From: Bacteroidales bacterium
Lineage (GTDB): Bacteria; Bacteroidota; Bacteroidia; Bacteroidales; UBA10428
Assembly: GCA_016936215.1 (NCBI GenBank)
Contig: JAFGPL010000152.1
Coordinates: 1-37,271 of the forward strand
DNA: 37,271 nt
Direction: 5' to 3'
Shown piece after piece: positions 4,284 to 37,128 of the stretch (position 1 is the stretch's first letter; each line of letters begins with the position of its first letter). The notes under the pieces were generated by a model. The model was given only the letters and a program-made list of their open reading frames with translations. It was not told where the DNA came from and did not search any database. The position numbers and the translations under genes were made by a program.

Positions 4284-5177
4284 ATGAAACGAGTTGCACC
4301 AATTTTTATATTGCTTATCATGGCTATGGGTATAAGGGCGCAGCAGAAGCCCCTTACCACCCTGTTTATGACAAACCCGTTTGCTATAAACCCTGCCCTT
4401 GCAGGTACGCACAACTATTTCCAGGTGATTTCCAATAACAGGTTTCAATGGGTGGGTTTCGACAATGCCCCGATTACAAATACCCTGAGTATTTTCGGGC
4501 CTACCGTAAACTTTCCGATGGGATGGGGCGGCACCATTTCATACGATGTGGCAGGCGCTGTGAGCATCGGAAGCGCCCATGGATCTTATGCTTATTATTA
4601 TCCTATCAATGAAGACCTTAAAGTTTCAATGGGACTAAACCTCGGCGTGCTTCAATACAGTATAGACATGACCAAAATTACACTGCAGAACACGGCCGAC
4701 CCGGTTTATTACGATGCACAGGAAACACGTTATCTTCCCGATGCCTCAGTAGGTTTTTATCTTTACAGCTCTACCTACAATGTTGGCTTTGTTGCTACTA
4801 ACCTTTTAAACAACAAGGTAAAAATTGGTGAAGACCCGTCGGGTAAAAGCAGGCTCAAAAGCCACTTTTATCTCACGGGAGGGTATAAATACTTTATCAA
4901 CCGTGAATGGTCGGTTGAACCTACATTCATCCTCAAAAAAGTATTTCCGGCGCCTTTTCAGCTCGATATTAACGTGAGGGGCTGGTACAGAAACATGATA
5001 TGGTTTGGTACTTCGTACCGTACAGGCGAAGCCCTTTCTGTTCTTGCAGGATATGTATACGAAAATAAAATACAAATCGGTTATTCATACGATATTGTGC
5101 TTAGTCCGCTTGGAAAGTATAACTTTGGGTCTCACGAATTAATTTTAAGTTATAAATTTAACCGTATAAAAGATTAA
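4284..5177 (+). CDS. PorP/SprF family type IX secretion outer-membrane protein
   Basis: This 297-residue protein has an N-terminal signal peptide (about residues 1-19, ending IRAQQ). The mature start reads TLFMTNPFAINPALAGT, the typical opening of PorP/SprF proteins, where an early N.Y..NPA.AG segment precedes a beta-barrel. Alternating hydrophobic strands run to the C-terminus, which ends in an amphipathic strand (LILSYKFNRIKD). Members sit in the outer membrane; SprF is needed for surface delivery of the SprB adhesin, and such genes usually lie directly after their large substrate gene, as here (1-bp gap). The inferred role is therefore export or anchoring of the preceding repeat protein. 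The family also includes general T9SS components (PorP), but the context favours a substrate-dedicated SprF-like paralogue. Confidence 0.93.
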   Translation: MKRVAPIFILLIMAMGIRAQQKPLTTLFMTNPFAINPALAGTHNYFQVISNNRFQWVGFDNAPITNTLSIFGPTVNFPMGWGGTISYDVAGAVSIGSAHGSYAYYYPINEDLKVSMGLNLGVLQYSIDMTKITLQNTADPVYYDAQETRYLPDASVGFYLYSSTYNVGFVATNLLNNKVKIGEDPSGKSRLKSHFYLTGGYKYFINREWSVEPTFILKKVFPAPFQLDINVRGWYRNMIWFGTSYRTGEALSVLAGYVYENKIQIGYSYDIVLSPLGKYNFGSHELILSYKFNRIKD

Positions 5178-8531: not shown

Positions 8532-9989
8532 TTATAACTCTTTGCGCATCCTTGCCACGGGGATGTTTAATTGTTCACGGTATTTGGCTACTGTTCTTCT
8601 GGCAACAGGATATCCTTTCTTATTGAGAATTGAAGCCAATTTTTCGTCTGTCAAAGGTTTTTTCTTGTCCTCGTTGTCAATACAATCCTGTAATATTTTT
8701 TTGATCTCCCTGGTCGAAACCTCTTCACCCGTATCGGTCTGCATACCTTCAGAGAAAAAATATTTCAACGGGAAAATACCAAAGTTGGTCTGTATGTATT
8801 TGCTGTTGGCTACCCGCGAAATTGTAGAAATATCCAGCCCGGTACGGTCAGCAATATCTTTCAGGATCATTGGCCTGAGTTTTGTTTCATCGCCTTCGAG
8901 GAAATAATTATACTGGTAATCGAGAATGGCCTGCATGGTAACAATCAGGGTATTCTGACGCTGGCGCAACGCATCAATAAACCACCGTGCCGAATCAAGC
9001 TTTTGCTTTACAAAGGTTACGGCCTCTTTCTGGTCTTTTGAAGAAAGGTTTCTGTGATGCTGATAAGTCTCGAGCATTTCATTGTAAGTTCTGTTTACCC
9101 TTAGTTCGGGAATATTTTTGGAATTCAGGTTGAGCTGCAGGTCCCCGTCAATATTTTCGAGGATGAAGTCGGGGACAATATGGCTGAAAGTCTTGTTTTG
9201 CGGATCGCTGAACGCGCTGCCCGGTTTTGGGTTGAGCTTCAGTATCTCGTCAATGGCAGGTTTTAATTCATCTTCTGTTATATTCAGCCTCGCGATGATT
9301 TTATCATAATGCTTGCGTGTAAATTCTTCGAAATGGCTTTTGAGAATTTTTGTTGCAAGGCTGATTTCATGAACCTGCTGGTCTTTGCTCTCAATCTGCA
9401 ACACAAGGCACTCCTGCAGGTTCCTGGCACCAACGCCTACCGGGTCAAAATCCTGAATAATCCTTAGTACCCCGATAAGTTCTATCTCGGTGGTAGATAT
9501 ATTCATCGAAAAAGCAATGTCGTCGGCAATAGCATCAAGTTTTCTGCGCAGGTAACCGTCTTCATCAATATTACCGATTAGATAGCTGGCAAGCATGCGC
9601 TGTCTTTCGTCGAGGGGCCTCAGTCCCAGTTGGGTTTCAAGGTAATCGTGAAAGGTTGACCCTACAGAAAAAGGTATTTCTTCCCTTTTGTCGTCTTTGG
9701 AATAATTCGAAGTGTTGAGGCGGTACGATGGAATTTCATCGTCTTCTATATAATCTTCAATGGTGAATTCTTCCTGGTCTTTATCTTTTGTATCTTCTCC
9801 CGCATCATCGTTGTCTGGCTGAAGGTCGTAGTCTGCCTCCTCCCCCTCCTCCAAAGCAGGGTTCTCTTCGAGTTCTTTTTTTATCCGTTGCTCCAGTTGC
9901 ATCGTGGGTATCTCCAGCAGTTTAATCATTTGTATCTGCTGGGGGGACAGCTTCTGCAGTAACTTCTGTTGTAATTTCTGTTTAAGCAT
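8532..9989 (-). CDS. rpoN: RNA polymerase sigma-54 factor RpoN
   Basis: From the ATG at 9989 the product is 485 residues. The Gln/Leu-rich N-terminal region I (LKQKLQQKLLQKLSPQQIQMIKLLEIP) binds activator and core polymerase. An acidic region II follows, then the core-binding domain (about 115-290), the HTH segment and the C-terminal RpoN box ARRTVAKYRE near residue 465, which reads the -24 element. It directs core polymerase to -24/-12 promoters that need an AAA+ activator. An apparent start one codon upstream (9992) is TTG and less likely. The gene follows asnS by about 27 bases; asnS-rpoN is a common pairing in Bacteroidota. No sigma-54 activator gene lies in the window. Confidence 0.97.
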   Translation of the reverse strand: MLKQKLQQKLLQKLSPQQIQMIKLLEIPTMQLEQRIKKELEENPALEEGEEADYDLQPDNDDAGEDTKDKDQEEFTIEDYIEDDEIPSYRLNTSNYSKDDKREEIPFSVGSTFHDYLETQLGLRPLDERQRMLASYLIGNIDEDGYLRRKLDAIADDIAFSMNISTTEIELIGVLRIIQDFDPVGVGARNLQECLVLQIESKDQQVHEISLATKILKSHFEEFTRKHYDKIIARLNITEDELKPAIDEILKLNPKPGSAFSDPQNKTFSHIVPDFILENIDGDLQLNLNSKNIPELRVNRTYNEMLETYQHHRNLSSKDQKEAVTFVKQKLDSARWFIDALRQRQNTLIVTMQAILDYQYNYFLEGDETKLRPMILKDIADRTGLDISTISRVANSKYIQTNFGIFPLKYFFSEGMQTDTGEEVSTREIKKILQDCIDNEDKKKPLTDEKLASILNKKGYPVARRTVAKYREQLNIPVARMRKEL

Positions 9990-10016
9990 CAATCATATTT
10001 AGACCTTCTAAATATA

Positions 10017-34140: not shown

Positions 34141-34203
34141 GGGTTGATTGGTTTTAAAAATTATGCCGCTAATATATTACCAAGCAACGCTTTATCAAAA
34201 TTG

Positions 34204-34377
34204 AATTTCGCAAAATTTTTTTTGCTCATTTGCGAAATTTGCAAAATTTTGTTCATTTCAAATTTTTTCGATATAAAATTTTGCGATTTTTGCAAATTGG
34301 TCAATTTTTTTTTTCATAAATTGCAAAAATTGGAATGTCCAATAAAAAAGATTTGCAAAAATTGCAAAATTTTTATG
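34204..34377. repeat. TTTGCAAA-type repeat array in the divergent promoter region
   Basis: The palindrome TTTGCAAA occurs at 34238-34245, 34289-34296 and 34352-34359. Close variants are at 34206 (TTTCGCAAAA), 34229 (TTTGCGAAA), 34279 (TTTTGCGA), 34321 and 34362 (TTGCAAAA). The GC centres start at about 34210, 34232, 34241, 34283, 34292, 34323, 34355 and 34364. Three pairs are 9 bases apart, and larger steps of 31, 42, 31 and 32 are close to three or four helix turns. The array ends at the ATG of the HTH gene. It is a strong candidate operator for that regulator. Confidence 0.75.
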
Positions 34378-35367
34378 CCAAGAACTTCACAGTTTAAAAA
34401 TCAAAGCCTTTTCCTGGAGAAAATCAAGAATCTCCTGCCTTCGAACCTATCGTTTGTTGAAACACTTTCACAGGTGCTTGGGCTTAGTATTGACAGTGTT
34501 TACCGAAGAGTCAGGGGTGAAACGGCCATTTCATTTGATGAAACCTTAAAGCTTTGCCAGCAATTTAACCTTTCTGTTGACTCGATTATCGAGGGAGATG
34601 CATCTGCTGTTACATTCAATTACAATCTTATGTGCCGGCAGGTTGATTGTTTTAAGGATTACCTCCGGTCAATACTTGAAGACCTGCAATTGCTGAACAA
34701 ATTCGAAAATGCAAGGGTAATCTATGTAGCAGAAGATATCCCTATTTTCCATCTATTTGCCTTTAAAGAACTTGCTGCCTTTAAAATGTATTATTGGATG
34801 AAATCGGTATTGAATGTGCCGGAATACCAGCATCTTAAGTATAGTTATAAGAATACCGACCCCGAAATACTTGAACTTGGCTCTAAAATACTGGAAGCTT
34901 ATTCACGCGTAAATTCTGTCGAGATATGGACAGAATTCACTATTAGTAGTCTTAGAAAACAGATAGATTATTATTTCGAAGCAGGATTGTTTGAAAACTG
35001 CGACGACGCGATGAAGCTTTGCGACCAGGCATCGGAGCTTGTAAAGCATATAAGCCGTTTGGCTGACACCGGATCGAAACTATCCGATGCCTCAAAACAG
35101 AATTACAAATTGTATTACAGTGAAATTGAAATTGGCAATAACTGCATACTGGTTGAGGTTAACAATATAAAAAAAGTGTATCTTACATATAATACATTTA
35201 ATAAAATGACCACAGCCAACGAAAAGTTTTGCGATGCCACCCATGCATGGATCAATTACCTTCTTGATAAAGCAAGCCTCATGAGCGGGGCATCTGAAAA
35301 ACAACGCTTGCAGTTTGTGAACAGAATAGTCTCACAGCTTGATCTCACCCGCAAAAAAATTCAATAA
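34375..35367 (+). CDS. HTH transcriptional regulator, Bacteroidota-type, uncharacterised C-terminal domain
   Basis: From the ATG at 34375 the product has 330 residues. Residues about 27-70 form an XRE-like helix-turn-helix (LSQVLGLSIDSVYRRVRGET, ISFDETLKLCQQFNLSVDSII). The remaining 250 residues are helix-rich (IWTEFTISSLRKQIDYYFEAG, FENCDDAMKLCDQASELV) and unrecognised; they may bind a ligand or dimerise. There is no signal peptide or membrane segment, so it is cytosolic. An in-frame extension back to a TTG at 34144 is open but consists of the repeat array and would start four bases from the divergent gene, so it is rejected. The likely role is control of the divergent surface lipoprotein and of itself through the array; this is inference. 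Confidence 0.72.
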   Translation: MPRTSQFKNQSLFLEKIKNLLPSNLSFVETLSQVLGLSIDSVYRRVRGETAISFDETLKLCQQFNLSVDSIIEGDASAVTFNYNLMCRQVDCFKDYLRSILEDLQLLNKFENARVIYVAEDIPIFHLFAFKELAAFKMYYWMKSVLNVPEYQHLKYSYKNTDPEILELGSKILEAYSRVNSVEIWTEFTISSLRKQIDYYFEAGLFENCDDAMKLCDQASELVKHISRLADTGSKLSDASKQNYKLYYSEIEIGNNCILVEVNNIKKVYLTYNTFNKMTTANEKFCDATHAWINYLLDKASLMSGASEKQRLQFVNRIVSQLDLTRKKIQ

Positions 35368-35580: not shown

Positions 35581-37128
35581 ATGGGAAAAGGCAGGATTTA
35601 TAAGATACTTATTATTGATTTGATGATCCTTATCGCATCAATCATGCTGGCTGTGCTGTTTAAACAGGGAACCGGTAATAGTTATCTGCATGATTATGCC
35701 CTTGAATTCTGCCTTTTATTGGTGATCTGGGGTTTCAGTTCGTTTTTTTTCGGTAAATATGCTACTCTGAATAAATATGAAATTGCTAAAGCAATAAGGA
35801 CAATCCTGTTAAGTAATTTTTTTTCTTTTGCGCTGATAACCAGTATTATGTATATAACCCGAATTGTATATTACTCGCGGTTTGTAGTAATAGGCACCAT
35901 TGTAATTGCATCGGTTGGAGAAATCATATTTACCCTGTTGTCAGGCCTTTTTAAAAGACCGGTAATGTATAACATTACTGGTAATAATTATAGCGAAATT
36001 AAAAATGGAAATGGTATTTCGCTGCTTAACGGCAACATCCTTAAGTTAAGAAAAAGGCAAAAAAAAGTTGCCTCTGCATTGGCCATTACCACGAGAAAAC
36101 AAGCTTTACTGGATGAAATAAGCAAAAATGCATTTGATTTTATCTTTTCTTATGCCAGTCTTGAATCAGAAAATTCGCTGATTGTAAGCACCACTTCACG
36201 CTTCAATATTGACACACAACTGGCATCAGCATTCGATTCAATAGTTAACATCAACCGAATTAACGACATCAGGTACCTGAACAAGTTCTTTGAATCGGCA
36301 AATGCAAAATTACCCGTTGGCGGATTGTTTATTGATTATGTTGAAACAAAAGACCTCAGAAAACAGCGTATCCTCAGAAAATTTCCACCGGTACTGAATT
36401 ATATCTTCTATTCTTTTGATTTTATTATTAAAAGGGTGTTCCCGAAATTTTTGCTTACAAAGAAAATTTACTTTTTTCTTACCAGGGGACAGAACCGGGT
36501 AATTACAAAAGCCGAGACTTTTGGAAGGTTATATTCATGCGGGTTTGAAATTATCGCAGAGAAGTTTATTGACAATCACCTGTATTTCGTCGCACGTAAA
36601 ACCGGCAAACCTGTTTTCCCCGAACGCCCAAGCTACGGGCCTCTTGTAAGGTTAGAACGCATCGGCAAAAACGGCAAAAAAATTGTAGTGTTCAAGATGC
36701 GCACCATGCACCCTTATGCCGAATACCTGCAGCAATATGTTTATGAAAAAGTCGGACTTGACAACGGTGGTAAATTTAAAAACGACTTCAGAATTTCTAC
36801 TATCGGCAGGTTAATGCGCACTTTCTGGATTGATGAGCTGCCTATGTTGTTTAACCTTTTTAAAGGCGACCTTAAACTGGTAGGTGTCAGACCATTGAGC
36901 CAGCAATATTTTAGCCTGTATACCAAAGAACTGCAGGAAAGGCGTATTAAATATAAACCGGGTATGATACCTCCGTTTTATGTTGATAATCCACAAACTC
37001 TTGAAGATATTATGGCTTCTGAACTCAGGTATCTCGAAGCCTATGAGAAACACCCGTTTCTTACTGATTTTAAATATTTTTTCAGGGCAGTCTGTAATAT
37101 TTTATTTAAACGTTACCGCAGCAAATAA
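35581..37128 (+). CDS. Polysaccharide-initiating sugar transferase with extra middle domain
   Basis: The protein has 515 residues. Four hydrophobic segments (about 6-28, 38-58, 74-92, 100-122) anchor it in the inner membrane. A middle region (about 150-345) is unusual; its end (LPVGGLFIDYVET, TFGRLYSCGFEIIAEKFIDN, LYFVARKTG) looks like the C-terminal part of a class I methyltransferase, but no SAM-binding glycine loop is visible. The C-terminus (about 353-505) is a bacterial sugar transferase domain (RLERIGKNGKKIVVFKMRTM, STIGRLMRTFWIDELPMLFN, FKGDLKLVGVRPLS, YKPGMIPPFYV). Such enzymes move a sugar-1-phosphate onto undecaprenyl phosphate to start a surface glycan. The usual membrane hairpin directly before the catalytic domain is replaced by the middle region. 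It probably begins a polysaccharide locus continuing to the right. Confidence 0.85.
   Translation: MGKGRIYKILIIDLMILIASIMLAVLFKQGTGNSYLHDYALEFCLLLVIWGFSSFFFGKYATLNKYEIAKAIRTILLSNFFSFALITSIMYITRIVYYSRFVVIGTIVIASVGEIIFTLLSGLFKRPVMYNITGNNYSEIKNGNGISLLNGNILKLRKRQKKVASALAITTRKQALLDEISKNAFDFIFSYASLESENSLIVSTTSRFNIDTQLASAFDSIVNINRINDIRYLNKFFESANAKLPVGGLFIDYVETKDLRKQRILRKFPPVLNYIFYSFDFIIKRVFPKFLLTKKIYFFLTRGQNRVITKAETFGRLYSCGFEIIAEKFIDNHLYFVARKTGKPVFPERPSYGPLVRLERIGKNGKKIVVFKMRTMHPYAEYLQQYVYEKVGLDNGGKFKNDFRISTIGRLMRTFWIDELPMLFNLFKGDLKLVGVRPLSQQYFSLYTKELQERRIKYKPGMIPPFYVDNPQTLEDIMASELRYLEAYEKHPFLTDFKYFFRAVCNILFKRYRSK

Follow-up and report, generated by a model that had tools for sequence, protein, structure and literature searches.

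Lambda CI and the C proteins of restriction-modification systems are Cro/C1-type repressors with multi-operator control regions, TrmB-type regulators combine an HTH with a phospholipase-D-like effector domain, the DNA-binding domain of TrmB itself being a winged helix, and in AraC, LysR and CRP class I systems regulator and target form divergent pairs that have activation sites upstream. Here, we present a predicted operator array beside the gene of an HTH regulator, P0001, in a 37,271-nucleotide contig of a Bacteroidales bacterium (GenBank assembly GCA_016936215.1, contig JAFGPL010000152.1; this whole stretch is referred to as the window), together with a comparative analysis of the regulator's family. 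As with lambda CI and the C proteins, the N-terminal HTH of P0001 has the same fold and dyads of about 17 bp, known here as sequence, are clustered beside the regulator gene. Unlike these systems, the P0001 family features recurrent distances of about 30, 40 and 50 bp, a large second domain and, in the relatives, a divergent envelope target, and unlike the phage CI-type repressors it has no phage or prophage context in the phage records and viral contigs covered. The second domain (residues about 78-305) resembles those of TrmB and TrmBL2 with Z-scores at the noise border, and also those of several nucleases and phospholipases, but the N-terminus is by Pfam and structure comparison a Cro/C1 HTH and not the winged helix of TrmB. 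With AraC, LysR and CRP class I systems the family shares the divergent arrangement of regulator and target and sites at recurrent distances, the nearest presumably about 72 bp before the target's transcription start; it differs from them in having up to four phased dyads, and activation is here the presumed sign. Among the matches listed in a search of open-licence literature, there was no account of the regulator family or of its operator.

In the window, the regulator gene (34375..35367, plus strand, 330 residues) and the gene of a divergent surface lipoprotein, P0002 (32821..34140, minus strand), flank four dyads centred at 34237, 34288, 34319 and 34360, with steps of 51, 31 and 41 bp. We identify as the unit a dyad of 17-19 bp, WTTTGCRWWWWWYGCAAAW, with the 17-bp palindrome form TTTGC-N7-GCAAA. 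The predicted operators, none of which is assigned to a strand, are O1 (ATTTGCGAAATTTGCAAAA, 34228..34246), which matches the family motif exactly and precedes the lipoprotein ATG by 97 bp; O2 (TTTTGCGATTTTTGCAAAT, 34279..34297), also an exact match, whose 17-mer is found upstream of the homologue L054 as well; O3 (TTTTTCATAAATTGCAAAA, 34310..34328), a predicted weaker operator with one mismatch, of which a near-identical 17-mer lies upstream of the homologues L064 and L100; and O4 (ATTTGCAAAAATTGCAAAA, 34351..34369), again exact and five bases before the regulator ATG. The initial annotation had described eight copies or variants of an 8-bp palindrome as the unit. In our analysis TTTGCAAA is the appearance of a half-site, present with at most one mismatch in seven copies (starting at 34207, 34229, 34238, 34289, 34320, 34352 and 34361), while the eighth, TTTGCGAT at 34280, has two mismatches. 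Steps between the eight centres are 22, 9, 42, 9, 31, 32 and 9, so that the three 9-bp pairs and the steps of 42, 31 and 32 counted earlier by hand are correct, but the first of the two counted steps of 31 is 22 + 9; because the unit is the 17-19 bp dyad, each 9-bp pair is one operator. An isolated half-site-like TTCGCAAA (34207..34214, no strand assigned) is located outside any full dyad.

The density of the 8-mer exceeds chance only modestly: the 172 bp contain seven copies with no more than one mismatch, where shuffled sequence averages 3.1, and 1.1% of 5000 dinucleotide shuffles have at least as many. Over the whole window no enrichment was found (49 copies versus 48.9 expected). The dyad TTTGC-N7-GCAAA, in contrast, occurs in the same 172 bp three times exactly (shuffle mean 0.03) and four times with at most one mismatch (shuffle mean 0.23), and none of the 5000 shuffles reaches either number. 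AT-richness does not explain the dyad. In the 5.3-Mb genome, the 19-mer WTTTGCRWWWWWYGCAAAW is present exactly in three places, all in the array, and with at most one mismatch in nine, four of which are in the array, while a control with the pattern read backwards gave one match per strand. The scan at up to one mismatch gave no sign of a dispersed regulon in this genome, as the five further one-mismatch places are not clustered; three are within long reading frames (contigs C50, C92 and C238) and two between frames (C1:15205 and C29:2616).

A reading of the array as coding sequence was rejected: a frame in the window remains open from 34144 across the array, but among 51 regulators with a dyad scoring at least 12, the window included, the frame is open to the best dyad in only 14, and dyads also precede partner genes (described below) that have no regulator on the fetched stretch. 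The regulator's own frame extends without a stop across the entire array upstream (34144-35367), which is not the case in most dyad-bearing relatives. No Rfam family was found in the window at the gathering score, and RNA-level roles were set aside, since the signal takes the form of a symmetric DNA dyad with recurring spacing.

Within the order, 55 of 393 genomes, among them that of the window, contain relatives of P0001 at an E-value of 1e-30 or better, and a contig search with an alignment of the family (A3) returned 61 further named loci, mostly from Bacteroidetes/Bacteroidota with a few from Chlorobi/Chlorobiota, 15 of which duplicate loci of the order genomes; P0001 alone as the query returned none. 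After 19 duplicates were dropped, including these 15, the non-redundant set comprised 118 regulators with the window included. Gene starts were placed at the ATG nearest to the expected start, and as another codon stands there in 16 of the 118, distances to the regulator ATG are approximate. The dyad, with at most one mismatch and within 300 bp upstream, is present at 47 of the 118 regulators, window included. This supports an operator array tied to the HTH regulator, and the refutation named in the initial annotation, a lack of such arrays at homologues, did not come true; its statement that neither gene family explains the array is contradicted, since the HTH family does. Within 250 bp upstream of the homologues with at least 33% identity, the window excluded, an exact dyad is present in 13 of 52 against 0.14 as the mean of 100 shuffles, and one with at most one mismatch in 26 of 52 against a shuffle mean of 1.9, whereas none of 19 more distant homologues (below 33% identity) has a dyad in the same interval. 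Derived from 58 sites of 45 homologues with the window left out, the family motif is WTTTGC(A/G)WWWWW(T/C)GCAAAW, the seven central positions having been free in the search pattern, and this window-free motif recovers all four sites of the window with scores of 24.8, 24.2, 17.8 and 24.8 for O1 to O4.

Distances between dyads in the homologues fall at 9 (overlapping), 30-32, 39-41, 50-51 and 80-82 bp, with 68 observed against 1.7 expected from shuffles. Based on one representative per 55%-identity cluster, with steps limited to 15-130 bp and periods of 9-12 scanned, 25 neighbour steps from 23 cluster representatives have a period of 10.1 bp (R 0.80), and none of 5000 sets of random distances reaches that value. 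The helical phasing suggested earlier from the single array is thus borne out across the family, where dyad distances lie near whole turns. Steps of 50 or 51 followed by 30 or 31 bp are found at L049, L055, L137 and L140, and the window, with 51 and 31 plus an extra 41 bp, has this array geometry of about 50- and 31-bp steps. No dyad was found upstream of the regulators in another genome of the window's own genus (G001) and in one of the same family (G002), one of the two G002 copies having Ns there, while a third genome of that family (G004) has both the dyad and the partner. A more distant branch of the HTH family is represented by L008, L012, L016 and L018, several copies in a single genome (G052) and some of them close together; within 300 bp upstream of L008 and L016 there are no dyads.

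The regulator itself is present in a single copy in its genome at an E-value of 0.01. Its BetR match (PF08667) of 22.7 bits exceeds the gathering score of 21.6 but covers only positions 26-76 of the 148 in the profile, and because the match is partial we filed P0001 as HTH-type only; 34 of 37 members of a family alignment (A1) match BetR at an E-value of 0.1 or better, and HTH_3 (PF01381) is below its cut-off in P0001 (15.1 versus 23). In the structure model (pLDDT 90.8, pTM 0.82), residues 1-75 match the Cro/C1 HTH chains of C.EcoT38IS (Z 9.0) and the lambda repressor (Z 7.9). For the C-terminal alpha/beta domain (residues about 78-305), the weak matches to a phospholipase-D/TrmB-effector-like fold include, among those listed, NucT, PLD4, Zucchini, TrmBL2 and TrmB at Z 7.3-8.6, the noise border for unrelated folds, with the TrmB and TrmBL2 chains at Z 7.3-8.0; we take all five to belong to the phospholipase-D superfamily. 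Foldseek returned no match for P0001 at an E-value of 0.001, the best being 0.014. The motif HxKxxxxD, which is taken as the catalytic signature of phospholipase-D-like enzymes, is absent in all 54 aligned rows, and because of this absence the C-terminal domain is likely a sensor rather than an enzyme. On plasmids there are two weak relatives of the regulator, and among phages there was no relative in 50,697 phage records and none confirmed in viral contigs.

In 46 of the 118 homologues, the fetched stretch includes a divergent gene for a conserved protein of about 370 residues, the same in all cases and hereafter called the partner. A dyad is present within 300 bp in 37 of these 46 partner-linked homologues versus ten of the 72 partner-less ones, the window being among the ten (Fisher p 3e-13, with rows counted as independent despite kinship); the remaining nine partner-linked homologues have no dyad at up to one mismatch. 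On independent branches of a quick tree (106 of the 118 rows, with identity of at least 29% and at least 300 residues; midpoint root), about 5.3 of nine pairs show a joint change of partner and dyad and 0.2 an opposite one, with a median sign-test p of 0.06. The window's regulator belongs to a 73-row group (SH-aLRT 98) in which the tree places all 45 of its partner-linked rows. In the model of the L099 partner (pLDDT 86.3, pTM 0.50), an N-terminal helix, which by eye resembles a signal peptide, is followed by a TolB_N/LpoB-like domain and eight long strands like those of the Ail and OmpX barrels, with Foldseek matches to TolB (E 3.5e-8), LpoB (2.2e-6), Ail (2.2e-5) and OmpX (3.2e-4). Judging from this model, the partner is probably an envelope protein with a periplasmic TolB_N/LpoB-like domain and an 8-stranded outer-membrane barrel. 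Of two partners scanned with Pfam, neither had a match above cut-off and one had a sub-threshold match to TolB_N. Across the order, partner matches were found in 42 of 386 genomes, five of them with short partial matches only. The partner reading frame is interrupted in L003 (G004) and L180 (G224), and the dyads are nonetheless retained there.

Partners that do not lie beside a regulator gene provide a view of possible action in trans. The comparison included 15 partner places without a neighbouring regulator, there being no regulator on the fetched stretches, and left out the short partial matches in G176, G218, G262, G279 and G364. Elsewhere in the genome a regulator is present in eight of the 15 and in none of the other seven. 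Upstream dyads scoring at least 12 are found at the unlinked partner in seven of the eight genomes with a regulator versus none of the seven without (Fisher p 0.0014), this threshold having been chosen after the scores were known, and at the looser threshold of 6 in seven of eight versus one of seven (p 0.010). The sole exception among the eight is G125, which has a regulator and an unlinked partner, yet no dyad at the partner. For G077 only 175 bp upstream were available, G168 also holds a linked pair, and one weak dyad (10.2) precedes the partner in G032; G246, with a 61-residue HTH match (4.9e-4), was scored as regulator-less, and G263, with an 84-residue partial match, as regulator-positive. 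The regulators of G307 and G224 (L046 and L052) lack a dyad within 300 bp upstream, while the unlinked partners in the same genomes have two dyads 30 bp apart and three dyads 31 and 50 bp apart, respectively. This comparison indicates that the dyad follows the presence of the regulator and stays with the partner promoter, and as unlinked genes keep their dyads where the regulator exists, the site is tied both to the regulator and to the control of the envelope gene. At L046, L050 and L052 a gap of 6-10 bp separates the regulator gene from a preceding gene, and the regulator itself lacks a dyad; the preceding gene belongs to the EPSP-synthase/MurA family at L046, and those at L050 and L052 look alike by eye.

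The distances between dyads and partner promoters were assessed with the -7 consensus and its position at -12 to -5 as given for a flavobacterium in a published study (PMC9723704). CCGTTT occurs in 21 of the 61 partner leaders (e.g. L043, L047 and L180), where shuffles average 1.0, and the distance from it to a TAnnTTTG-like -7 box is exactly 27 bp in 14 of the 21 and 28 bp in three; it may represent a specialised -33 element, or another factor may bind there. Of the 61 leaders, 12 are dyad-less and 15 have dyads but no recognisable promoter, and the dyad distances rest on the other 34 with 67 dyads. Measured to the start of the -7 box, nine dyads are at 59-61, 19 at 108-112 and 12 at 139-143 bp, these bins having been drawn after the list was known, and 27 of the 67 are outside them. 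Given that box position, the bins would put the dyads near -72, -122 and -153 from the transcription start. The recurrent distances upstream of the core promoter therefore point to control of the partner promoter, most simply by activation, although repression through a loop may be an alternative. The initial annotation overlooked this aspect: the conserved geometry relates to the divergent gene's promoter, and not only to the regulator's own gene, for whose forward promoter no consistent box was found.

In the window, the place of the usual envelope partner is occupied by P0002, which has a lipoprotein-like N-terminus (by eye) and DUF4493 and lamin tail (LTD) domains by Pfam. No TolB_N/barrel partner was found in the window genome by protein search at an E-value of 0.01, and a partner profile at the same cut-off gave none either, with all 26 candidates scored and both positive-control genomes matching; as the partner was not found in the genome, we regard the window as a variant of the module. 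No dyad was found in up to 600 bp upstream of nine P0002 relatives from other genomes (0/9), and because these lipoprotein relatives lack it, the array goes with the regulator. Relative to the lipoprotein ATG, the four dyads are at -97, -148, -179 and -220, while those of linked partners span -88 to -249. A weak candidate -7 box, TATATTAG (34169..34176, minus strand), would place O1 to O4 61, 112, 143 and 184 bp upstream, compared with mostly 60, 110 and 141 in the relatives, and a candidate -33 element, CAATTT (34198..34203, minus strand), is located 27 bp before this box, start to start; at the -33 position many relatives have CCGTTT, while L054, L056, L063 and L067 have CAATTT. The divergent promoter of the window is degenerate, and since a second, equally good -7 candidate (TAATTTTT, 34156-34163), at 74, 125, 156 and 197 bp, does not match the register, the window's own promoter register is a weak point. 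Most likely, the control region was retained while the target gene behind it was exchanged, and as the lipoprotein holds the place of the missing partner, it is probably the present target.

Taken as a whole, we consider it quite likely that the array is the platform of P0001, from which phased dimers control both the regulator's own gene and the divergent gene. Comparison of sequences argues for the site, its association with the family, the phasing, the fixed register and the action in trans on unlinked partners. Physically, one dimer of the HTH protein would bind per 17-19 bp dyad, and with spacings of 51, 31 and 41 bp, about five, three and four helical turns, the dimers would be on one face of the DNA with neighbours in reach of each other, as cooperative binding would need. 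Two genes would be controlled by P0001: its own, with the array spanning the region upstream, and the divergent one, with a core promoter that would keep a fixed register to the array; the divergent target would be the envelope protein in the relatives and the DUF4493/LTD lipoprotein in the window genome. As to sign, it is likeliest that the divergent gene is activated from sites lying upstream, O1 being about 72 bp before its transcription start, and that the regulator's own gene is repressed, and the C-terminal domain probably senses a ligand.

Pure autoregulation, in which the array would serve the regulator's promoter alone and the divergent gene would be an unaffected neighbour, is the strongest of the competing explanations, and we regard it as unlikely. 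The array spans the upstream region of the regulator, with O4 five bases before its ATG, and dyads are found at ten regulators without a divergent partner, the window included. However, unlinked partners keep their dyads in seven of eight regulator-bearing genomes, mostly in the fixed register to the -7 box, and in G307 and G224 it is the partners and not the regulators that have dyads; this contrary evidence comes from partner-bearing genomes, and for the window itself, in whose genome the partner was not found, autoregulation alone may apply. That the sites would belong to another global regulator or a nucleoid protein binding AT-rich palindromes, and not to P0001, is clearly less probable still. 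AT-rich palindromes are common sites of such proteins, but the exact 19-mer is found nowhere else in the genome and the dyads at unlinked partners track the presence of the P0001 family (7/8 versus 0/7). Very improbable, in turn, is that the dyads are the inverted repeats of an invertible, phase-variable promoter, which reportedly occur in Bacteroidales: 23-bp arms are 87% and 96% complementary, but their inverted arrangement follows from the palindromic form of each dyad, the same spacing and register are found throughout the regulator family, and there is no recombinase among the ten window proteins scanned with Pfam. Chance occurrence in AT-rich sequence has a negligible probability, as the modest enrichment of the 8-mer alone (p about 0.011), absent over the window, gives way for the dyad to shuffle statistics, genome scarcity and conservation that refute it.

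The control of both genes by P0001 would have broader implications. A regulator family for which no described function was found gains a sharp predicted motif, a recurrent geometry and a target, in a module of regulator and target found repeatedly among the Bacteroidota, of which the window is a variant with an unrelated surface lipoprotein, apparently replacing the usual target. The unlinked partners that retain the sites where the regulator exists can be seen as a natural experiment on regulation in trans, and the window would, if this is true, represent target replacement under a conserved control region. More tentatively, and with doubt slightly outweighing confidence, we propose a so far undescribed Bacteroidota family of one-component signalling proteins, an HTH with a catalytically dead PLD-like sensor, that would control an outer-membrane TolB_N-barrel protein through promoter-locked operators at about -72, -122 and -153, with the window as a natural target swap in which the control region and promoter register are retained. 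Elsewhere in the window, sigma-54 (8532-9992), a type IX secretion system protein of PorP/SprF type (4284-5177) and, beside the regulator, a sugar transferase (35581-37128) are ordinary features.
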